From positions 1 to 44,098 of IMG/VR virus record IMGVR_UViG_3300027418_000016: a stretch of 44,098 bases of DNA; one strand, written 5' to 3'. Source of the DNA: a virus. The position numbers were made by a program, and so were the translations under genes. Under the pieces are notes generated by a model. The model saw only the letters and a program-made list of their open reading frames with translations. It searched no databases and was not told the DNA's origin. This document shows positions 23,040-35,090 of this stretch, piece after piece (the first letter of the stretch is position 1; every line of letters starts with the position of its first letter).

Positions 23040-25766
23040 TTATTTAGATTTGCAATTATCGCATTTACATTCGTAATTATCTAAATCCATTCTTAATTTT
23101 TCGATTTGTGTTTGTTGTTCTTTAATACCTTCAATTAATAATGCTACTAATTTATCGTATTTAACGGCTTTGAAACCATTTTCTCTCGTTTGAACTAATT
23201 GAGGTAATACTGCTTCAATTTCTTGTGCGATTACACCCACATCGTTTCCTTCGTATCCATGCTCAATTTTATTCTCAGCTTTCCAATCATAAGTGTTACC
23301 ACTAATCTTAGAAATCTTATCCAATGCGTTTTCAATTGGAGTAATATTTTCTTTGAAACGAATATCTGAAGATGAGAATGCTACGATATCGTTTGCTGCA
23401 TCAATTCTACCAGATGTTCCACTTGCTGCCATACCAATTCCTAATGAAGCGTGTTGAACATTTGAAGTAGTTAATAAGTTTTGGTTGATAACTGTACCAT
23501 ATCCAGTTGTTGAACTTAAAGTTACTTGAGATGAACCAGAAACAACTGTGTTAGAGTTCAATTGAGTTTTTACATCAGTTGCAAAATTTGTAGTTGAACC
23601 TGCAGTAATTTGTGATGAACCACTTACTGTACCTGTTGGTAAGTTTGCGATTGTTTGTGATGAACCAGAAACAATTCCTGCAGGTATAGAAGAAATATTT
23701 GCATATGTAATTTGAGATGAACCCGAAACTACTCCTGCTGGTAATTGTGCTTGCAATGAACCAGATAATACTCCGTTATTAGCGTTAATTGTACCATTAA
23801 ATGAAGTTCCTGTTACTGAACCTGATATAGTTGTTGCTGCATTGATAGATAATGTTCTGCTATTATTTGCCATATTACCAAGCATAAATGCTTGTGACTC
23901 ATAATCACCATTACTTACATAGAATTTATAACTTTCCGTAGTAGATGAAATAGGGCCTGCATTTGCACCTAATAAAAGGTTGTTTGTACTATTACCTGAT
24001 AAATATGCACCTGCTCCATATCCTAATGCTGTACTTTTAATAAATACATCATTGGTATCGACAACACCATTCAATGCATTGTCACCAATTCCGACATTGT
24101 AATATCCATTATTTAATTTACCCGCTGCATTAGTTCCGATAAATATGTTATTAGAAACACTTGAACCGGTCATAGTCATAGCCGTAGCATAACCTATGGT
24201 AATATTATTACTATTACTACCACTTATACCAAATCCAGCCTGGTCACCAATTGCTATGTTTTCAGACCCAGTTGTTAATTTATATAATGAGCTTCTACCA
24301 ATTCCCACATTGCCTTCACCCGATGTTAAAGATGGCATTATATCAATACCTAAAACAACATTCATATCAGGATTAGTACCTCTTCTACCAATTTGGTATT
24401 GGCCAACATTTACATAAGAACCAGTTCCAATTACTATATTTGCTTGAGAGTATAAACCATTAGGGAAAGTTTGAGAACCATCTGCATTTGTAGATAATGT
24501 TGATACAACTGTACCATTTGCCACAACTTTAATTGAACCAGTTGAAATATATAAATCTCTCCATATATTAGTTGCAGAACCTAAATCATATGTACTTGTT
24601 GTACCAGGTATAATTGAACCGGTTACATTTACATTACCATAAAGATTATTATTAGTTCCATCCCAACGATATTTAATATTACCTTGTCCATCTGCTAAAA
24701 CTATATTATTAGATAAGGATGCTTCACCTGTATATTTACCAATTATTGTATTGTAAGAACCCGTAGTAATTAAATATCCTGCAGTATCCCCAATTGCAAT
24801 ATTGCTTTGACCTGTGGTATGCCATTCTAAAGCAGCATGTCCAATAGCTATATTACTACTACCACTTACATTTAGTCTTAATGCAAGTGTACCTAAAGCC
24901 GTATTATAATTACCAACATTGTCAGCTAAAGTATTTGTACCTAAAGCCGTATTATTAACACCTGTTGTATTGGTTGCTAGAGATGCATTTCCTACTGCAG
25001 TATTACCATTACCTGTTGTATTATTTTGCATGGCACCTGAACCTACTGCTGTATTACCATTAGCACCAGTATTATATCGTAAAGCACCCCAACCAACTGC
25101 AGTATTAGCATTTGTTGTTGTATTAGCTTGTAAAGTATCTGCACCAATTGCAGTATTACCAACACCTGTTGTATTAACTTTCAATGCATTAGAACCAATA
25201 GCTGTATTTATATAACCACTTGTATTTGTAGACAATGCAGTTACACCGACCGCAGTATTACTAGCTACTGAATTTAATCCTTTACCTACTGTTAATCCAT
25301 TAACGACTAAATCATTTGGAAAATTTTGAGAACCAGCTGCAGTAATAGATAGTGTCGATACAATATTACCACCGGCTCCAATAAATTTGATTGAACCTGT
25401 TGAGATGTATAAATCTCTCCAAATTTTAGTCGCAGAACCTAAATCAAATGCGTTTGTTGTTTGAGGAATAAGTGATGAACTTAAAGATGCTATAACATTT
25501 ACAGTATCAGCAGATGCATCACCTATTGTGATTGCTCCACCTAATGTTAAGTTACCATCAATTTTTGCGTTTCCTGTGATGTCTAATGATGAACCTGAAA
25601 TGCCAGCGAATGAACCCTGACTTCCTGTTCCTGATGCTCCTAATGTAATATCACCGGTTTCTCCTCCAATTTGTAATGTTCCTAATGTAGTATTTACATA
25701 GGGTTCTCCGAATGCTAACGAACCGGATTTCTGTGCGGTAGTACCGCGTCTAAATTTAAGTCCCAT
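23040..25766 (-). CDS. Tail fibre with YadA-like head repeats and peptidase S74 chaperone
   Basis: 908 residues. The N-terminal module (LKFRRGTTAQKSGSLAFGEP, then YVNT) is shared with other fibres here. Residues 170-347 are eleven copies of N-T/I-x-x-G-x-x-x-L/G with a 17-residue period, as in YadA-type trimeric heads; a second, weaker set follows a repeat of the linker TYDLGSATNIWRDLYIST. Residues about 670-770 carry several VSGSSQ repeats. The C-terminus is an intramolecular chaperone of the S74 type: SSSDIRFKENITPIENAL, GNTYDWKAENK, then DVGVIAQEIEAVLPQLV and a terminal coiled coil. Family knowledge puts self-cleavage between Ser800 and Asp801, after trimer folding. Unusually the chaperone ends CKCDNCKSK, which could bind metal or form disulfides. 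Likely a receptor-binding fibre. Confidence 0.88.
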   Translation of the reverse strand: MGLKFRRGTTAQKSGSLAFGEPYVNTTLGTLQIGGETGDITLGASGTGSQGSFAGISGSSLDITGNAKIDGNLTLGGAITIGDASADTVNVIASLSSSLIPQTTNAFDLGSATKIWRDLYISTGSIKFIGAGGNIVSTLSITAAGSQNFPNDLVVNGLTVGKGLNSVASNTAVGVTALSTNTSGYINTAIGSNALKVNTTGVGNTAIGADTLQANTTTNANTAVGWGALRYNTGANGNTAVGSGAMQNNTTGNGNTAVGNASLATNTTGVNNTALGTNTLADNVGNYNTALGTLALRLNVSGSSNIAIGHAALEWHTTGQSNIAIGDTAGYLITTGSYNTIIGKYTGEASLSNNIVLADGQGNIKYRWDGTNNNLYGNVNVTGSIIPGTTSTYDLGSATNIWRDLYISTGSIKVVANGTVVSTLSTNADGSQTFPNGLYSQANIVIGTGSYVNVGQYQIGRRGTNPDMNVVLGIDIMPSLTSGEGNVGIGRSSLYKLTTGSENIAIGDQAGFGISGSNSNNITIGYATAMTMTGSSVSNNIFIGTNAAGKLNNGYYNVGIGDNALNGVVDTNDVFIKSTALGYGAGAYLSGNSTNNLLLGANAGPISSTTESYKFYVSNGDYESQAFMLGNMANNSRTLSINAATTISGSVTGTSFNGTINANNGVLSGSLQAQLPAGVVSGSSQITYANISSIPAGIVSGSSQTIANLPTGTVSGSSQITAGSTTNFATDVKTQLNSNTVVSGSSQVTLSSTTGYGTVINQNLLTTSNVQHASLGIGMAASGTSGRIDAANDIVAFSSSDIRFKENITPIENALDKISKISGNTYDWKAENKIEHGYEGNDVGVIAQEIEAVLPQLVQTRENGFKAVKYDKLVALLIEGIKEQQTQIEKLRMDLDNYECKCDNCKSK
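23520..23745 (-). repeat. VSGSSQ repeats in the S74 fibre
   Basis: Four close copies of P-A/T-G-x-V-S-G-S-S-Q-x and relatives, at roughly 20-residue spacing. The same coding repeat occurs in at least three other fibre genes of the window. Confidence 0.7.
24726..25259 (-). repeat. Eleven 17-residue YadA-head-like repeats
   Basis: NTAVGVTAL, NTAIGSNAL, NTAIGADTL and so on at residues 170, 187, 204, 221, 238, 255, 272, 288, 305, 322 and 339. The period is 17 except one step of 16. At DNA level this is a 51-base degenerate repeat. Confidence 0.85.
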
Positions 25767-25825: not shown

Positions 25826-28800
25826 CTATTTGTTTTCCAAATCTTTTATTTTTGCAGATAATTCTTTTATAGCTTCAATTAAAAGTGGAATTATTTTTTC
25901 ATATTGAACCGCTTTATATCCATTATCTCTATTTGTTACAATTTGTGGAAGTATTTCTTCAATTTCTTGTGCAATTACTCCTACATCGTTTCCTTTATGA
26001 GAATGTATTTCTTCATATCCCGCTTTCCAATCGTATGTGTTACCACTAATTTGATTTACCTTTTCTAAAGCGTTTACAATTGGAACTATATTTTCTTTTA
26101 ATCGTATATCAGATGAATAATATGCAGTAATATCGCCAATTGCTCTAATTTCACCTGTGGTTGTTGATGCAGCAGCTCCAACTCCAATTGAATTAAATTG
26201 ATAATCACCAATAGAACCACTATGAATAGTAGAGCCACCTAATATTTGTGAAGAACCACTAATTACTCCCGTAGGTAAGTTTGCGATTGTTTGTGATGAA
26301 CCACTAATTACTCCAGTTGGTAATAAAGAAACAACTTGAGATGAACCCGATACCAATGTGTGAGTTGCTGATGCAACTTTTTCAAATGAACCAGTTTCAC
26401 TTTCAGTAATCCAACTACCACTTACGGAATTTACAACCGCCAATGATGCTGAAACTGATTGTAAGTCAACTCCACCAAATGCTTGTAATTCTATATAATC
26501 TATTCTTCCTTCGTGATTTGATGCTGTCCAATATAATTCTACAATACTCATCGTTGCTGATGAACTAAATTGATTTAATGAAACAATTGATGCTGTCATT
26601 AAAGATGTTGAAATATATAAACTTGCAGTTGCACTATTTAAACTTCCGGTTGATGTTTCTAATAGTGTTAATCTACTTAAAGTTGAACTACTAAATTGAT
26701 TTAAACTTCCTGTTGATGTTTCTAACAATCCTAATCTAGTATTAGTAGACTGAGTAAATTGATTTATATTCGAAACTGCAGTATTTAAACTTGCAGTAGT
26801 TGAATTTATATTTGTAATTGATGTATTTAAACTAGCCGTTGTGTTATTTATAGAAACTAATGATGTAGTTACACTTGCACTAAATAAATTCAATGATGCG
26901 GTACTTTCTTCAATTCTACTTAATCTTGTTGTAGATGTAGTTGATGTGGTTGATAAACTTACAATTCTACTATCTACTGATGTCGAATATGCTGTTACAC
27001 TTACACCATTTAAACCAACAATAGTTGATGAACTTATTGAACCTAATGCTGCAATATTTGTATTAAAGTATAATCTTTGATTGGAATCTTCCCAACTCAT
27101 TGATACATTTGCTCCTGCAATATTAAATCCTGCTCCATCTGCAATTCCAGATGTAGTCGAACCACTAGCTAATGTTATACTCTTATCTTCAATAAAAGTT
27201 TCAGTTGTATTTAATGATGTTTGTGTACCATCTACAATTAAGTTTCCTAAAATTCTAGTATTGCCACCGGTTACATCGATTGCCGTTTTTAGTGAAGCAG
27301 TATATGTGTTTAATGAAGATGTTGCAACATTCAAACTTGCAGATGTTGTTTCTAAATTATTTAATCTACCATCTCTAATGTCAATATATCCTTTTACTGC
27401 AAATTGTGTTGGAACAGTATCTTCACCTGTAATTCCTTGTGCGTTTAATAAAGTTGTATTATTACTTACTTCATTCAATATAACACCTACCCCTACTCCG
27501 TTTCTTTTGAATGGCCCTATTGCACTTAAACCTGATAAATTGAATTGGTTTGCGTCAATTGTAACTTCTCCAGTCAATTGATTTACTGCAAAGAAATCAC
27601 CAATTTTTAAATTACCTATATTGTCAACTGTTGAATAAAATACTCTACCCGGAGCATATTCAACAATTTCTTTTGTTCTATTTGGAACTCCACCGAATTT
27701 TGGAAGTGCGTTATATGTAACACCACTACCACCATATTCCATAACCAATCCACCCGTTGAGATGTTTGATAATTGATGAAAATAAACATTATTTCCCGTT
27801 GTAATTGAAGGTGGTGCAGGATAAACTGTTACATATCTTTGATTTGCAGAACTACCGGTTGCAACATTTGTTACTAAATAATCAGTTCCATTTAAAATCA
27901 TATTTGAAGAAACATCAACACCCCTACTCCCACTTTGTAATTGGAATAATATTGCATTAATACCACTAATTTGAGCTTTTCCGGCAACCGTTGTAGCTTG
28001 AATTGCACCTGGACCAGTTGGTGCTGCAATTACAAGATTTGGTTGTGATGTATATCCACTACCAGGAGTTAAAATTACAATTTGGTCAATTGAACCATTT
28101 GCACTAACATTTGCTTCTGCAGTTGCTTGAACACTTGCTCCTCCACCACTAATAGTCACACTTGCAACTGAACCCGTATAACCTGCTCCATCTTGTAGAA
28201 TAACTGCACCAACTACTGTTGATGTCAATGTTTGTAATGAAGAACCCGTATTATATGTTTGAGGGAAATATGTTTTAGATACTAATCCTTCTTTACCAAA
28301 ATCTATTACTGAATTTGAAATATTTGCAAAACCACCATTTGCTACTTTGAAACCATAGGTACAAAATGTAGTAAAACAAGATACGAATTGTGCATATCCT
28401 TTGTTGATTACTAAGTGACCAGGTCCACCCTGATTAACTTGAGTAAATGCATCTGCTACAAATGATTCTAATGGTGATGACCCACTTACTAAATTGCCAT
28501 CAATTTTAATACCACCCCCCGCTCCTTGCTCATCAATTATGCCTGAACCAATTATTGCATTTGATTGATTTCTTACATCATTTATATTATATGGTAATGC
28601 TGCGTAATTTACATTTCCAGGTATAAGAGATAATAAAGTACCATCAGTTGTAAATGGTCCTGTAATTGAGGAACAATTTTGAATATATGGTGATGTCCCA
28701 ATTACTGGTCTTTTTGATGATGGTGCTTGAATTGATACATGTGGTTTTTCACCTGCAACATATCCACTACCATTATTTACCATAGTGATAGAAAGTGTTC

Positions 28801-29779
28801 CACCACTTACACTCGCCGTCGCCGTTGCTACGGTTCCGCCGGCATCAGGACCTTCTATAATAACATTTACACTTTCACCATTAACATAACCACTTTCAGT
28901 ATGAACCAATGTTATTGTACTAACACCACCTGCATTTATTGTTGCATTTGCGGTAGAACATGGAAATGAAAATGCGAATGCTGGATTTTGTAAATTTAAA
29001 AATCTCAATCCATAAAAATAGTTTCCATCATGACAATGGAAGTAATCTTTTGTAGGATTTGATGCCGTTAATCTAACTGTTCTTAATGTATCACCAACAA
29101 TTGCAACTCCCGGTGGAACTGCTATTGGATTGTTTTCCGTATAATTACCACTACCAATAAAAATTGTAGTTCTTTGTATATTTGATGCAATAGCCGAACC
29201 TAAAGATGCAACTGCCGCTTTGATTGTTTTGAAAGGTTTGTGAGGTTCCGTACCATCATTAGTATCAATACCTTCGGGTGAAACATAAAGTCTCTTAGAA
29301 CCACTCATAGCAGTCTCTAATAAATCCATTCTACCTTCATGATTAGAACCAGTCCATTCTAAATCTCCAATTCTAGTATTAAGTGAAGTGACATTGCCCA
29401 AACCTACTAAATTTGTAAATGAACCGGAGGTTGCATAAACATTTCTATATAATTTATTTGATGCTCCTAAATCATATGTATTAGTTGCATCGGGTATAAT
29501 TGAAGAACTTAAATCTGCATTAAAAACAACACTGTCATTTGTAGTATCACCAATTGTAATTGTTCCACCCAATACAACATTACCACTAATATATGCACTA
29601 CCTGTTAATATGATATCTCCAAATGAAGCAGTGTTTAATGATAACATTTTAATTGGAACACCGGCCGCCGCTGTGCCTACTTGGAATGCACTTTCTGCTG
29701 TATTTAAATATAATTCACCATTTTCTAATGATGATGTATTCGAACTATTACCTCTTCTTATTTGAAATATTGCTGCCAT
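25826..29779 (-). CDS. Tail fibre/tailspike-like protein with pectate-lyase-like helix and S74 chaperone
   Basis: 1317 residues. N-terminal fibre module (IFQIRRGNSSNTSSLENGEL, then YLNT), then IIPDATNTYDLGASNKLYRN. Residues 163-560 resemble the parallel beta-helix fibres of T4-like cyanophages: RLYVSPEGIDTNDGTEPHKP, FKTIKAAVASL, then TIFIGSGNYTENNPIAVPPG and VAIVGDTLRTV. Segments with NGSGYVAGEKPHVSI and PGSGYTSQPNLVI are small repeats also seen in the sheath insertion. Residues about 970-1130 are LNxFSxS/TASLN helical repeats, followed by VSGSSQ repeats. The S74 chaperone begins at Asp1224 (SSDIRLKENIVPIVNALEKV), with predicted cleavage after Ser1223. Whether the beta helix has depolymerase activity or only a structural role cannot be told; no catalytic Asp/Glu cluster is identified. 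Confidence 0.85.
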   Translation of the reverse strand: MAAIFQIRRGNSSNTSSLENGELYLNTAESAFQVGTAAAGVPIKMLSLNTASFGDIILTGSAYISGNVVLGGTITIGDTTNDSVVFNADLSSSIIPDATNTYDLGASNKLYRNVYATSGSFTNLVGLGNVTSLNTRIGDLEWTGSNHEGRMDLLETAMSGSKRLYVSPEGIDTNDGTEPHKPFKTIKAAVASLGSAIASNIQRTTIFIGSGNYTENNPIAVPPGVAIVGDTLRTVRLTASNPTKDYFHCHDGNYFYGLRFLNLQNPAFAFSFPCSTANATINAGGVSTITLVHTESGYVNGESVNVIIEGPDAGGTVATATASVSGGTLSITMVNNGSGYVAGEKPHVSIQAPSSKRPVIGTSPYIQNCSSITGPFTTDGTLLSLIPGNVNYAALPYNINDVRNQSNAIIGSGIIDEQGAGGGIKIDGNLVSGSSPLESFVADAFTQVNQGGPGHLVINKGYAQFVSCFTTFCTYGFKVANGGFANISNSVIDFGKEGLVSKTYFPQTYNTGSSLQTLTSTVVGAVILQDGAGYTGSVASVTISGGGASVQATAEANVSANGSIDQIVILTPGSGYTSQPNLVIAAPTGPGAIQATTVAGKAQISGINAILFQLQSGSRGVDVSSNMILNGTDYLVTNVATGSSANQRYVTVYPAPPSITTGNNVYFHQLSNISTGGLVMEYGGSGVTYNALPKFGGVPNRTKEIVEYAPGRVFYSTVDNIGNLKIGDFFAVNQLTGEVTIDANQFNLSGLSAIGPFKRNGVGVGVILNEVSNNTTLLNAQGITGEDTVPTQFAVKGYIDIRDGRLNNLETTSASLNVATSSLNTYTASLKTAIDVTGGNTRILGNLIVDGTQTSLNTTETFIEDKSITLASGSTTSGIADGAGFNIAGANVSMSWEDSNQRLYFNTNIAALGSISSSTIVGLNGVSVTAYSTSVDSRIVSLSTTSTTSTTRLSRIEESTASLNLFSASVTTSLVSINNTTASLNTSITNINSTTASLNTAVSNINQFTQSTNTRLGLLETSTGSLNQFSSSTLSRLTLLETSTGSLNSATASLYISTSLMTASIVSLNQFSSSATMSIVELYWTASNHEGRIDYIELQAFGGVDLQSVSASLAVVNSVSGSWITESETGSFEKVASATHTLVSGSSQVVSLLPTGVISGSSQTIANLPTGVISGSSQILGGSTIHSGSIGDYQFNSIGVGAAASTTTGEIRAIGDITAYYSSDIRLKENIVPIVNALEKVNQISGNTYDWKAGYEEIHSHKGNDVGVIAQEIEEILPQIVTNRDNGYKAVQYEKIIPLLIEAIKELSAKIKDLENK

Positions 29780-29823: not shown

Positions 29824-30063
29824 TTATTCCGTTGGATATAATTCGTTTATCACTTCTACAATCTTCCAACCAGATAATCCTTTCATCTGTTCTATCAATT
29901 CTAATAAATGAGTAGATGTCATTACCACCAATCCATCATAGATATAATATTGTTCACCACCATTCCAAATTTCATTACCATCAAAATCTTCAATAATTCT
30001 TTTATATTTTGTATCGTTTAACTTAATTATTTTAAGTTTCATTTCTTTTAATCTTGTTTCCAT
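29824..30063 (-). CDS. Small hypothetical protein, 79 aa
   Basis: I choose the ATG at 30061-30063 (METRLKEMKLKIIKLND), four bases after the stop of the fibrinogen-like gene. Longer in-frame starts would lie inside that gene and give unlikely sequence. The protein is KIIKLNDTKYKRIIEDFDGN, then EQYYIYDGLVVMTSTHLLEL and a C-terminal GWKIVEVINELYPTE. Strand-strand-helix-strand order suggests a small globular protein. No family recognised. A small protein after an adhesin gene could be a fibre assembly chaperone (compare T4 gp57A and gp38 roles), but this is only positional. Confidence 0.55.
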   Translation of the reverse strand: METRLKEMKLKIIKLNDTKYKRIIEDFDGNEIWNGGEQYYIYDGLVVMTSTHLLELIEQMKGLSGWKIVEVINELYPTE

Positions 30064-30067
30064 AATA

Positions 30068-30844
30068 TTATAAATCTGTAAATGATAAAAATGCTGCTCC
30101 ATAATTGTGATAATCACCACCCGAACCTGACCAATAGGGCCCGTCTTGATATCCGCTACCACCTGCAAAATAATTTCCATCCCAACATGCACCATACCAC
30201 CAAGGTTGATTATTATAAAGAACTGAACAATTTGCACCGTATGCATCTTGGTCATTATTATATGTCGAAAAGGAAAAATTGTTTACCGCGTGATATGCAT
30301 ACCAACCAGGATTATCCGCTCCAACATCAACCGTTATACTTCTTGGGTAAATAAATGCATATGTTGAGGTAAACCCATTAAATTTCCATCTTGCTCTTTT
30401 TGTGTGACTTCCCGATATACTTACATTGGATGTTGCGACATATTGGCAAATCGTATCTCCTAAATATTTCCAATAAGGTAATCCAACTAATAAATTAAAT
30501 CCTAAAGATGAATTATATGTTCCGGCAGTATTAATTTGTGCACCCGTTGCGGCCGCATATGTCAATCCACTCAAACCACCTGTATTTAATCTATTTGCTA
30601 CAACCATTACCCACACTCTCTGATTATCAAATGTGAAATCACAATAAAATTGATTTGCACCCAATCCTCCTGGGTTTAACCAATATATACCATTTGTGTT
30701 TATTCCACACTTATTTCTTAACCAATTTGCAGATGGTGCAGCTTTTGCAGAACTAGAACCATCTAATGTAACTGGATTAGTTGAAACTCCGGTTATTCCA
30801 AATGTTCTATTATTAATTACACTACTTTGAATATTAATTGCCAT
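30068..30844 (-). CDS. Phage adhesin with fibrinogen-related (ficolin-like) domain
   Basis: 258 residues. Residues 1-40 are a short attachment arm. From residue 46 the order of motifs follows the fibrinogen-related domain (FReD) of ficolins, tachylectins and fibrinogen: Cys46 then GIYWLNP, YCDFTFDNQRVWVMVV with Cys68, then FSFSTYNNDQDAYGANC (190-206), matching the calcium-site FST-x-D-x-D and Cys, and PWWYGACWDGNYFAG (214-228) with Cys220, matching A-W-W-Y-x-x-C-x-x-x-N-L-N-G, then DGPYWSGSGGDYHNYGAAFL. In animal FReDs this region binds acetylated sugars. I infer a host-glycan-binding adhesin. It sits with two LamG-like adhesin genes and overlaps none; its ATG directly follows the stop of the next upstream gene. 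The match is by motif order, not by search. Confidence 0.78.
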   Translation of the reverse strand: MAINIQSSVINNRTFGITGVSTNPVTLDGSSSAKAAPSANWLRNKCGINTNGIYWLNPGGLGANQFYCDFTFDNQRVWVMVVANRLNTGGLSGLTYAAATGAQINTAGTYNSSLGFNLLVGLPYWKYLGDTICQYVATSNVSISGSHTKRARWKFNGFTSTYAFIYPRSITVDVGADNPGWYAYHAVNNFSFSTYNNDQDAYGANCSVLYNNQPWWYGACWDGNYFAGGSGYQDGPYWSGSGGDYHNYGAAFLSFTDL

Positions 30845-30845
30845 A

Positions 30846-31601
30846 CTATCTATATAATGTTACTCCTAATAATCCAAAAATATTTGAATAATAGTTGTAT
30901 ACTTGATTAATTTTATCCGTGCTTAATTCCGAACCATAAACCATACATGCATGCAAATATCCAGCTTGTACCGTTCCGGCATATCCACTACCCACTCTTA
31001 TTGCACCACTTCTCAATATATTTCCTTCTTGTCTATTTGTGTAACCAGCCGTCCATACACCATTATTATAGTAAAATCCAGTAGTAGCCGATGCATTTCC
31101 ATTTATTGCAATCATGTTCCATGCACCCGTTGTGTATGATTTAGATTCCGCATAATCATAATCTGGATATTGCCTATACCAACTTATGGTATTAGCAACT
31201 TCCATTGTACACGCTAACTCTTGTTGATATGATGCATAAGATGTTCCTGCTTTTTCAAATATTGTCCTTCTAGCTGCAAACCCTTCATGATAATAAATTA
31301 ATATTAAAGTATACGCTCCTCTCATATCAACTTTATTTGCGTTTGCATCTGATGATTGAAAGTATCCAGAATCATTAAAGTCTGCACAGGGTATACCATT
31401 CAGTGATGTTTTCGGTGGTGCAGTATTAATAACACTCATTGGTATTCCTTGTGCGGAATCATACCAAGTTCCGCCATTATAATTTGTTGCATTTAGATTT
31501 AACAATAGTGTATCATCCGGAAGATGAAACTTATTTAGAGTTTCTCCCGAAGAATTAAAGTTTGTACTTTGTAATGTTTTATCTGCTAAATATATTGCCA
31601 T
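30846..31601 (-). CDS. LamG/concanavalin-like adhesin 1
   Basis: 251 residues. It shares its N-terminal arm with the next gene upstream (YLADKTLQSTNFNSSGETL against IVATNTLSSTDVNSSGVF). A jelly-roll-like domain follows: LLNLNATNYNGGTWYDSAQG, FNDSGYFQSSDAN, AYTLILIYYHEG, GAWNMIAINGNASATTGFYY and a final LHACMVYGSELSTDKINQVY. These are the usual steps of LamG-type phage proteins (aromatic strand, N/D turn, terminal operculum helix). Four Cys are present (about residues 72, 130, 219). It overlaps the preceding gene by one base (TAATG) and abuts the fibrinogen-like gene. Role: probable carbohydrate-binding tip or side fibre. Confidence 0.68.
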   Translation of the reverse strand: MAIYLADKTLQSTNFNSSGETLNKFHLPDDTLLLNLNATNYNGGTWYDSAQGIPMSVINTAPPKTSLNGIPCADFNDSGYFQSSDANANKVDMRGAYTLILIYYHEGFAARRTIFEKAGTSYASYQQELACTMEVANTISWYRQYPDYDYAESKSYTTGAWNMIAINGNASATTGFYYNNGVWTAGYTNRQEGNILRSGAIRVGSGYAGTVQAGYLHACMVYGSELSTDKINQVYNYYSNIFGLLGVTLYR

Positions 31602-32338
31602 TATATACCAAATCTGCTTTTTTCTGCTGTGAAATTTTGAAATACTTCATCACCTGATAGAGCTCTATTATAAATTCTAACAACTGCGATGCCTCCACTA
31701 AATTGTCTGCCCACACTTTCTCTTCCTATATTTATATTTTGTCCAGGAGTTGCATCACCTTGTGAAGCTCCGTTACCCGAATTCACTCCGTTTGTATATT
31801 GAAATACTCTACCACTTTGATAATCCCAAGCAGAACACCAATGATGCCATGCACTACGAGCAGAGGGGCCCACTGTTTCGTGGTATCCTTCGGTTGGATG
31901 TGAATACCAATATGTTGACAAGTAACTATTATCTTTGTTCCAACTCATATATTGTCCACTTCCACCATTTACCAATATTACCGTACCTCTATCACCTGAT
32001 GTTAATTCGGATGCACCTGGATATATCCAAACTTCAAATGTTGCCGATTTTGTTCCAAATGTTGCCGATGTCCCTGCTTTATACGCATATTTACCATCAG
32101 CATTAAAATTCATTGCAGTTCTACCTCCAACCGTTGCAGTTGTTAAACTTCCTAATAAATCTAAATCACTCCCACTACCAACCATATTATACCAAGTTGC
32201 TCCAGAGCCTGGATATGAATAAAAATTTGCAGCATCGTAATATGTAACCAATCCTTCATCTACAATTGCTCTTGTAAATACACCCGATGAGTTTACATCT
32301 GTCGAACTTAATGTATTTGTTGCAACTATAATAGACAT
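31601..32338 (-). CDS. LamG/concanavalin-like adhesin 2
   Basis: 245 residues with a clear LamG-type pattern: GLVTYYDAANFYSYPGSGAT, AMNFNADGKYAYK, SATFEVWIYPGASE, GTVILVNGGSGQYMSWN, AWHHWCSAWDYQSGRVFQYT and the typical end GGIAVVRIYNRALSGDEVFQ followed by NFTAEKSRFGI. The N-terminal arm (residues 1-22) is like that of adhesin 1, so both probably dock to the same virion site. It follows the 916-residue fibre with a one-base gap and overlaps adhesin 1 by one base, so the set is one translational unit. Confidence 0.78.
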   Translation of the reverse strand: MSIIVATNTLSSTDVNSSGVFTRAIVDEGLVTYYDAANFYSYPGSGATWYNMVGSGSDLDLLGSLTTATVGGRTAMNFNADGKYAYKAGTSATFGTKSATFEVWIYPGASELTSGDRGTVILVNGGSGQYMSWNKDNSYLSTYWYSHPTEGYHETVGPSARSAWHHWCSAWDYQSGRVFQYTNGVNSGNGASQGDATPGQNINIGRESVGRQFSGGIAVVRIYNRALSGDEVFQNFTAEKSRFGI

Positions 32339-32339
32339 A

Positions 32340-35090
32340 TTATTGTATTTCTTCTAATGAAAACTTAAATTTCTTACCTGTCTTATTATTTATGATGTAT
32401 AAATGTTCTGCTCCTTCTTGTATTGTCCAATTTCCGGTTGTTCCATCTATATCATTTCCTTCTGGTTTTCCTTCATTACTCAAATGTAAGTCGTTTGTAT
32501 ATACATTTGCCCAACCAAGTGATGCCGAACCCAAATTGTAACTATTATTTGCATTTGGTAATAAATCACCTTTAACTCTCAATTGACCCCCAATCCAAAC
32601 ATTTCCAGTATTACCATGTATTGACATATTTGTTTGACCATTACCAACAAACACATATTCATTTGGGTTACCAGAGTTTGACCATATATCACCTGGTCCA
32701 CCCGTTCCGTTTGTTCCATATCGTGCACCACTATTACCTGCCCAAAATATACCCCAACCATCATTATTTCCAGGAGTTCCGGCCACATTAGACATCCAAC
32801 CACTATAATCCGCACTAAATCTAAAAGGTGCATTACTATCACCATTTCCGGATTGTGTTATTGTTCCTGTAACTGATGTAAATGTTGGAGATGATGTTGT
32901 TAATACCGCTTGATTTAATACTGAACCATATCCAGTTGTCGATGATAATGTTATTTGAGAACTACCACTAACTAATGTAGGAAGAGAACTTATACCACTA
33001 AAAGTGATTTGTGAAGAGCCACTAACAATTCCTCTACCTTTTGTTTCATAAGATGATGTTGCTGCGTTTAAATTGCTTACCGAAGTGTTTAAACTTGCAG
33101 TTGTTGTATTTAAATTTGTAATTGAAGTAGCTTGTGTATTATTTGTAGATAATGCAGTTGATGCAGATGCTTCTAATGCAGTTAATCTTATATTACTTGA
33201 GCCGGTTTGTGTATTTATATTATTTATTGAAATATTTACACTTCCGGATGTCGTTTCTAAATTGTTTAATCTATTAACACTTGCAGTATAAAAAGATGCA
33301 AAGGTACTATCGTTTGAAGTATCAACTGAATTAATTAATGTTACTATTTCTACAAATGTATCTTTGTCTGCATCTGCTGCTAATAAGATTGCATCAACTC
33401 TACCTTTTTCAGTTGTAATTCTACTATCTACTGATGTTGAATATGTTGAAAATCCGGTTGTAGATGAAATCGTTATTTGTGAACTCCCACTTACTATGCC
33501 TGATGGAATAGAACTAATATCTGCATATGTTATTTGTGAAGAACCACTAACCAATCCTCTACCTTTTGTTTCGTATGAAGATGTTGCTGTATTTTGGTTT
33601 AGAAAAGTAGATGCAATTGACGAACTAAGTGTAGTCAAATTTATACCATTAATATTTCCGGTACTTTCAAATGAACCACTCACTACTATATTATTACCAA
33701 AAACAATACCATTTCCACCTGATGATGTTATTTTATTTCCATCTTGTATTTGTAAAGTTCCTCTAACATCTATTAAACCAGTCGTTGGGTCAAATAATAA
33801 GTTACCACCGCCCGAAGATTTTAATTCAATATTTCCGTCTGCAGATTGTAAAATAATACTATCACTACCTGCTTCTAAAATCTTAATTGATTGACCTACA
33901 TCGGTTGTTATTTGTAATTCATTTCCTGTTGAACCCAATACCTTTGTTCCATCTATATAAAGTGAACCAGAGGAAACATATATGTCTCTCCATTGGTAAG
34001 TTACCGAACCTAAGTCGTATGTATTATCTATCGCTGGTATAATTGAACCGCTCAATGTTTGTGTTCCTCTAAACGTATTAGAACCTGTTGTTGCCAATAC
34101 CGATGATGTCAATTGTGAAGAACCACTTATTGTACCGGTTGGTAAGTTTGCAATTATTTGTGAAGAACCACTTACAATTCCGGAAGGTTTAGATGCAATA
34201 TTATCCCAAGTTGTTTGAGTAATACTTCCACTTAAAACATATCGTGCATCGTATGATGATGTTAATTGAGACGAACCACTTACAGTTCCTGCAGGTGCAG
34301 TTGCTACTATACCACCTACTCCAATTGATGCCACTAAATTATCTCTAACTATAAAATCAATACTATCCAATGTAGGTAATATTTGTGTACTACCTGATAC
34401 ATTTGTCAAAAATCCTTTAAAACCTACCGGTGTACCTACTGCGGTTGATTGTGATTGTTCGAAATCTATATAATATTTATCCGATACACTATTAAAATCA
34501 CTTATAGATGCTGAACTATTTGCATTATAATCCCAACCATCTCTTGGTATATCATCACTAACTACTCCTCTTAATCCACTACCATCTCCGGTAAATGAAC
34601 CAGTAAATGAACCGGTAGTTGTACCACCACCCACTTCTTGTCCGTTCAATAAAAACGAACCTGTAATATTTACCGAACCTGTGAATGAATGAATATCATC
34701 GGATGTATTACCAAATTTAGAACTACCACTTTCAAATAATGTGGAAGAAGATATGATTGCAATATTAAATTGTCTTGCGTTAATCGAACCTAAAACCGTT
34801 AAGTCCGAAGTGATTCCCAATGAACCACTTATTACACTAACACCATGATTGACTGTAAGTGTATCGTTTACTTTTAAAGAACCAAAAGAAGCAGTTCCCT
34901 CTAATCTAATAGACCCAGTTATTACTGAATTTGTTGTTACTACACTTTCAACCGATTCAATTGAACCCGATTTTTTAAAGTAAATCTTACCATCGTAAGT
35001 ATTTACAGCTAATTCTCCTAAATTAAGTGAACCCGTATCAGGTACCTTTCCTGATAACGCAGAGCGTTTCAGTTGAACAATTGATGCCAT
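32340..35090 (-). CDS. Tail fibre with VSGSSQ repeats
   Basis: 916 residues. N-terminal module SIVQLKRSALSGKVPDTGSL, then NLGELAVNTYDGKIYFKKSG, shared with the short protein at 35204. Residues about 150-170 have GSFTGSFTGDGSGLRGV, a frequent phage fibre turn. VSGSSQ(I/L) repeats occur at several places, with NTYDLGSVTYQWRDIYVSSG in between and LNxxT-ASLN helical repeats later. The C-terminus lacks an S74 domain and ends with NSYNLGSASLGWANVYTNDL, HLSNEGKPEGNDIDG, and LYIINNKTGKKFKFSLEEIQ, an ending I associate with fibres that do not self-cleave. It starts a transcription unit after a strong terminator. Likely a structural or receptor-binding fibre. Confidence 0.8.
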   Translation of the reverse strand: MASIVQLKRSALSGKVPDTGSLNLGELAVNTYDGKIYFKKSGSIESVESVVTTNSVITGSIRLEGTASFGSLKVNDTLTVNHGVSVISGSLGITSDLTVLGSINARQFNIAIISSSTLFESGSSKFGNTSDDIHSFTGSVNITGSFLLNGQEVGGGTTTGSFTGSFTGDGSGLRGVVSDDIPRDGWDYNANSSASISDFNSVSDKYYIDFEQSQSTAVGTPVGFKGFLTNVSGSTQILPTLDSIDFIVRDNLVASIGVGGIVATAPAGTVSGSSQLTSSYDARYVLSGSITQTTWDNIASKPSGIVSGSSQIIANLPTGTISGSSQLTSSVLATTGSNTFRGTQTLSGSIIPAIDNTYDLGSVTYQWRDIYVSSGSLYIDGTKVLGSTGNELQITTDVGQSIKILEAGSDSIILQSADGNIELKSSGGGNLLFDPTTGLIDVRGTLQIQDGNKITSSGGNGIVFGNNIVVSGSFESTGNINGINLTTLSSSIASTFLNQNTATSSYETKGRGLVSGSSQITYADISSIPSGIVSGSSQITISSTTGFSTYSTSVDSRITTEKGRVDAILLAADADKDTFVEIVTLINSVDTSNDSTFASFYTASVNRLNNLETTSGSVNISINNINTQTGSSNIRLTALEASASTALSTNNTQATSITNLNTTTASLNTSVSNLNAATSSYETKGRGIVSGSSQITFSGISSLPTLVSGSSQITLSSTTGYGSVLNQAVLTTSSPTFTSVTGTITQSGNGDSNAPFRFSADYSGWMSNVAGTPGNNDGWGIFWAGNSGARYGTNGTGGPGDIWSNSGNPNEYVFVGNGQTNMSIHGNTGNVWIGGQLRVKGDLLPNANNSYNLGSASLGWANVYTNDLHLSNEGKPEGNDIDGTTGNWTIQEGAEHLYIINNKTGKKFKFSLEEIQ

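Follow-up and report, generated by a model that had tools for sequence, protein, structure and literature searches.

The window analysed here, a viral record of 44,098 bp, encodes among its contractile-tail genes a 258-aa protein that, as judged from predicted structures, almost certainly has the fold of a fibrinogen-related domain (FReD). We consider it quite probable that this gene encodes a phage tail adhesin with one FReD as its body and a receptor-binding role. The FReD gene almost always precedes a gene from one of two small partner families, which suggests that the two constitute a two-gene host-recognition unit.

The FReD gene (30068..30844) is a genuine open reading frame with an ATG start, on the minus strand, which the first-pass annotation had left unstated; it was identified by ORF, Pfam, PDB profile, AlphaFold, and conservation evidence. 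Its product consists of an N-terminal segment of roughly 30 residues and a single FReD at about residues 34-258. The motif order from which a ficolin-like lectin had been proposed is present as KC46GINTNGIYWLNP, FYC68DFTF, FST-x5-D198-Q-D200, NC206, and PWWYGAC220, and the four cysteines assigned to FReD disulfide positions are confirmed among the five of the protein (46, 68, 133, 206, and 220). The YCDM..xGGGW motif is typical of the FReD family, without being required in every member. It is absent from the window protein, which carries YCDFTFDNQRVW at this place, while most relatives have YDGGGW; distant members retain SG-[FWY]-Y ... YDGGGW, the textbook motif having been lost in the window protein.

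Searches with the fibrinogen C-terminal model, the check suggested previously, gave a divided outcome. The window protein matched Pfam Fibrinogen_C (PF00147) with partial coverage at 20.6 bits (E=4.4e-4), just below the gathering score of 22 bits, whereas 24 of 35 family members matched it at E<=0.01 and one relative (L031) exceeded the cut-off with 29.7 bits over model positions 17-184 of 221. In a phmmer search of the PDB, the best match of the window protein was ANGPTL6 (1.9e-5), and ficolin-2 was also detected (0.0021). Homologues were gathered from IMG/VR, where a single-sequence search recovered 17 loci and an alignment-based search 56 viral contigs, and 35 members were combined into a family profile (A2). 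Compared with the PDB, this profile matched FReDs from E 1e-10, mainly those of animals, including tenascin, ficolins, angiopoietin-likes, FIBCD1, fibrinogen gamma, and tachylectin-5A; intelectin-type chains matched over the N-terminal half only. As to the presumed rarity of such proteins in phages, tblastn with the window protein gave a single weak match among isolate records, but IMG/VR yielded the 56 viral contigs. Other full-FReD members searched against isolate phages returned nothing, or just partial matches to cyanophage proteins. At one locus (L016:7621-8195) the FReD looks broken, with only an in-frame C-terminal piece of 73 aa and an intact downstream partner ORF, representing a degraded gene, a frameshift, or an assembly error.

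Two AlphaFold models of the protein had pLDDT values of 81 and 86 and pTM values of 0.82 and 0.84, with low confidence in both for a loop at about residues 200-220. All 50 of the 50 PDB matches listed by Foldseek were FReDs. The fold comparison with ficolin and tachylectin, proposed earlier as a check, was extended to many FReDs, fibrinogen among them, and gave Z-scores of 17-19.6 over about 200 residues. The highest values obtained with VIA-align, over 198-200 residues, were those of ANGPTL2 (19.6), tachylectin-5A (19.3, over 198 residues), M-ficolin (18.9), and FIBCD1 (18.7). The FReD assignment is thus borne out by both sequence profile and predicted structure, and a chance or low-complexity likeness, as in other Trp/Tyr/Gly/Asn-rich phage tail domains, was rejected as extremely improbable, since the aromatic, Gly-rich composition and the sub-threshold Pfam score of the window protein stand against an independent profile E near 1e-10, a fold Z near 19, and a relative above the Pfam cut-off.

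The phage family is wide, with identities to the window protein down to 29%, and its origin was weighed against the two routes considered in the first-pass annotation, transfer or retention of an old bacterial version. A search of 84,980 bacterial and archaeal species genomes with one conserved pattern yielded two relatives, both in Myxococcales MAGs and 33-34% identical over about 200 residues. These proteins, the closest cellular relatives found, are larger (>700 aa), and the partner ORF was not found at the two loci. The same MAGs (L059 and L060) contain nine and at least 15 matches to the phage-FReD profile, mostly to the GGGW half and in proteins mostly longer than 550 aa. Transfer from animals is not supported, because the nearest cellular relatives found, in a search that covered bacterial and archaeal genomes, are these Myxococcales proteins. 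A recent uptake of an animal ficolin-like gene by a phage might be expected from the fact that FReDs are mostly known from animals, as are the top PDB matches, although the PDB FReDs listed are all animal. However, identity to animal FReDs in the PDB is 12-21% by structural alignment, well below that to the Myxococcales proteins, the gene differs little in GC content (0.358) from the genes around it, and the phage family is broad and has its own partner gene. On these grounds a recent acquisition was rejected as very improbable, and recent exchange with animals in general is unlikely; an ancient exchange, in either direction, may have taken place. An old prokaryotic or phage lineage is the better of the two origins.

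In FIBCD1, calcium is bound by D393, D395, and the main-chain carbonyls of S397 and N399, and the acetyl pocket formed by Y405, H415, Y431, A432, and W443 adjoins the C401-C414 disulfide (PMC3908420). Equivalent phage residues were assigned by alignment with ficolin-2 and PDB FReDs and by spacing, with conservation counted over the 35 members; they are D198, D200, C206, Y210, C220, W221, Y232, Q233, and probably Y245 or D244. The calcium motif postulated previously is kept at the sequence level: the putative calcium ligands D198 and D200 each occur in 32/35 members, and the 8-residue spacing from D-x-D to Cys, common to ficolins, tachylectin-5A, and FIBCD1, is that of D393/D395/C401. The phage protein also shares with these lectins the pocket-flanking Cys pair, the WWY core, and tyrosines at the Y405 and Y431 positions. 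C206, C220, P214, W216, Y217, G218, and W221 are invariant (35/35), so that C206-C220, present as a pair in every sequence, is a candidate disulfide and counterpart of C401-C414, with a C-C spacing of 14 in the phage and 13 in FIBCD1. In contrast, the N-terminal pair C46/C68 is found in three members only, the window protein and its closest relatives. Three members that are divergent or paralogous (L014, L015, and L019) do not have the D-x-D, and in L014 and L015 a FReD copy without it lies beside a copy that retains it.

The proposed glycan pocket is retained in part. Y210 is present in 32 members and replaced by Phe in the other three, and Y232 is present in 30/35. On the other hand, the position of the pocket histidine (His415) is occupied by Trp221 in all 35 members, and that of the pocket-base alanine (Ala432) by Gln233 in the window protein, with Ala kept in 15 members; the last pocket position (Trp/Tyr443; W443 in FIBCD1) probably corresponds to D244 or Y245. 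Since the calcium motif and the two tyrosines are kept, the pocket is, by residue conservation, probably a binding site. Because the histidine is uniformly Trp, acetyl specificity cannot be transferred from animal FReDs, and with the change from Ala to Gln the ligand specificity may differ or acetyl groups may not bind. An acetylated glycan is a tentative candidate for the ligand. When the window protein is compared with its relative in L004, many substitutions fall in the N-terminal segment and in the calcium and ligand subdomain (residues 183-242).

The window carries sheath, tube, and baseplate genes and several fibres; the sheath is nearest to that of Microcystis phage Mel-JY01 (44%), followed by Flavobacterium phages (33%). 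The FReD gene lies within a minus-strand cassette ordered as fibre, LamG, LamG-like, FReD, 79-aa ORF, and S74 fibre, with internal gaps of 1-4 bases or an overlap of one base. At its head is a 916-aa tail-fibre-like protein (32340..35090) with repetitive fibre-like sequence and a match to phrog_13518 (7.7e-14), three genes upstream of the FReD. It is followed by a 245-aa small tail protein of LamG-fold lectin type (31601..32338; Laminin_G_3 4.5e-17, PHROG virion structural 1.6e-15) and a 251-aa LamG-like small tail protein (30846..31601), one base upstream of the FReD gene, which was assigned to the concanavalin type by inspection and had a weak PHROG match and none in Pfam. This LamG-like protein, which shares its type of N-terminal segment with the FReD protein, is a conserved FReD neighbour in six other loci (L003, L004, L005, L019, L020, and L021). 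The next gene after the partner ORF encodes a 1317-aa tail fibre (25826..29779; PHROG tail fibre) with a C-terminal Peptidase_S74 chaperone (Pfam S74 2.4e-16). A 908-aa fibre encoded at 23040-25766 also ends in a Peptidase_S74 domain and has an Mtd_N-like match at its N-terminus (Pfam).

Comparison across loci showed that the order LamG, LamG-like, FReD, and partner is retained in L003 and L004 at 80-97% identity, and that the flanking fibres are far more diverged (about 40% identity to L004). Elsewhere, the gene immediately before the FReD encodes a long fibre-like protein or, in L095, an S74-type fibre, and in most loci the gap from the upstream same-strand fibre, lectin, or other gene is -23 to 31 bp. 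Tandem FReD copies occur in L007, L014, and L015, and fusions to other tail domains in L020, L021, and L053. A profile built from the first 36 residues of the LamG-type neighbours found the FReD N-termini of L004, L019, and L005 (E 8.5e-6 to 5.5e-5, 18-21 bits, against a maximum of 12.4 bits among 9,500 shuffled controls); the significant matches were confined to these orthologues and did not include the window FReD. As this profile finds FReD N-termini, the sequences suggest a common docking segment with interchangeable lectin heads. The N-terminal segment of roughly 30 residues would dock the FReD protein on the end of the tail fibre, where the FReD, at the tip, would bind a glycan on the host surface by means of a calcium-ordered loop beside the aromatic pocket. 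The LamG-type proteins encoded nearby, which have this segment in common in relatives, could act as alternative or additional lectin heads.

It is the gene context that supports the receptor-binding tip envisaged in the first-pass annotation; fold and gene linkage were computed, and ligand, virion position, and chaperone role are our inferences. Alternatively, the protein could be a structural or decoration component of the tail in which the FReD serves as a scaffold without receptor contact, with host recognition left to the S74 fibres or the LamG proteins. The two large adjacent S74 fibres, the incomplete conservation of the acetyl pocket, and the loss of D-x-D in three divergent or paralogous members are in line with such a role. 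However, FReDs, where studied, are mostly recognition or binding domains; the nearby lectin folds, tandem copies, and fusions resemble an adhesin set; and many of the changes between the window and L004 proteins fall in the N-terminal segment and the ligand subdomain. We regard a purely structural role as rather unlikely and prefer the tail adhesin.

The partner ORF of the window (29824..30063, minus strand, 79 aa; family A3, c1) starts 4 bp past the FReD stop and was recovered by independent scans; a listed ORF at 29824-30255, which overlaps the FReD gene, is this frame read from a start further upstream. Of the 33 FReD genes whose downstream sequence was inspected, the window's included, 31 have a short ORF, mostly of 66-85 aa, about -35 to +11 bp behind them, which belongs to family c1 (24, including that of the window) or c2 (7). 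The two exceptions are the second copy of L015, without such an ORF, and L055, whose short ORF was not assigned to either family. The linkage was tested free of FReD ascertainment by scanning IMG/VR with c1 alone, which yielded 45 loci on 41 contigs, five of them new relative to the FReD scans. A FReD ORF ends directly upstream in 44 of the 45; the remaining locus (L076) is truncated by the end of its contig, and the bases preceding the partner there encode SGADNHQYGAIYIK-stop, which is the C-terminus of the FReD. Single-sequence scans with c2 returned known loci only. The identities among FReDs and those among c1 partners are correlated (Mantel r 0.73, 0/5000 permutations), a result that shared ancestry alone could yield. 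The relatedness of c1 and c2 was examined with hhalign, which detected none, and Pfam, PDB, and PHROG gave no support for a known chaperone or other domain in either; c2 weakly matches phrog_14793, a PHROG of no known function. A suspected resemblance between XkdW and the C-terminal extension of c2 found no support.

Fibre chaperones or tip proteins are encoded directly downstream of their client in T4, Mu, R-pyocins, and V22 (PMC7289586; for further comparison, PMC9608196). Because of this arrangement, the 79-aa product would, by analogy and with slightly better than even probability, act as a dedicated assembly chaperone or co-subunit. It could also be functionally separate from the FReD, their linkage reflecting only an inherited conserved operon, as gene order is passed down in related phages and the partner shares no domain with known chaperones. 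Nevertheless, the link persists behind varied upstream genes, extends over the 41 contigs of the partner-only search and over FReDs about 40% identical, and at none of the loci examined does the partner stand behind a LamG or fibre gene. Mere operon inheritance therefore appears a minority possibility beside a chaperone or co-subunit.

In gene order, the FReD and its partner resemble the gp38 tip adhesins of T-even type (S16 and PP01) and the fibre chaperones (T4 gp38, Mu Tfa, Pam3 gp25, and V22 gp27), likewise small post-fibre genes, with roles in tip recognition or assembly, and a gp38-like layout, with a separate small adhesin-type gene close behind a fibre, lectin, or other same-strand gene, occurs in most loci. 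No sequence or fold relation to these proteins was found, PDB, Pfam, and PHROG searches giving no gp38 match for the FReD, which would replace the Gly-rich tip of gp38; the partner is also shorter than Pam3 gp25 (162 aa) and the other chaperones (about 20-22 kDa). Unlike the animal FReD lectins, the phage protein is encoded in a tail operon alongside a small partner gene and, compared with ficolins, tachylectin-5A, and FIBCD1, lacks a stalk of collagen or coiled-coil type.

That a phage encodes a FReD is in itself no novelty, since automatic annotation already names phage-encoded FReDs, as in BFVD A0A6J5KYC4, a fold match, and the 'fibrinogen protein' among the tail-related genes of the roseophage CRP-822 group (PMC12629253). 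NCBIfam likewise already holds a bacterial motif model, GGGWT_bact (NF040941), whose SG-Y...GGGW motif occurs in most phage members, the GGGW being absent from that of the window. Cyanophage P-HM2 E3SSV2 and its relatives are phage-encoded FReDs or half-FReDs. A related neighbour in L012 (8880-9803, 307 aa) is a half-FReD protein that matches the profile in its N-terminal half only and has a different C-terminal half; its relatives occur in 32 records, nearly all of cyanophages (S-H9-2, ACG-2014h, and P-HM2 among them), and are mostly annotated as hypothetical. Its assignment as an intelectin relative was discarded, the C-terminal likeness having been seen by eye only and the PDB search having given no match. 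PHROGs families matching phage FReDs are labelled 'unknown function', and no functional study of a phage FReD was found in the open-access literature searched. The collections and literature searched appear to contain no description of the wide phage family with Trp in the pocket, of the exchangeable lectin cassette, or of the partner gene tied to the FReD.

FReDs are central to microbe recognition by animal innate immunity. A possible, though rather speculative, reading is that the phage genes form an exchangeable unit, composed of a calcium-dependent head of ficolin type and an obligatory FReD-only partner, whose pocket with Trp in place of His reads acetylated or otherwise modified bacterial glycans, as animal FReDs do. 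A broad phage family of this fold, placed like receptor-binding proteins, would imply that phages and animals read bacterial surfaces with one calcium-pocket scaffold. The phage family offers small lectins for testing, and the linked small gene provides both a concrete clue to their production by co-expression and a marker for finding further phage FReDs in viral dark matter.
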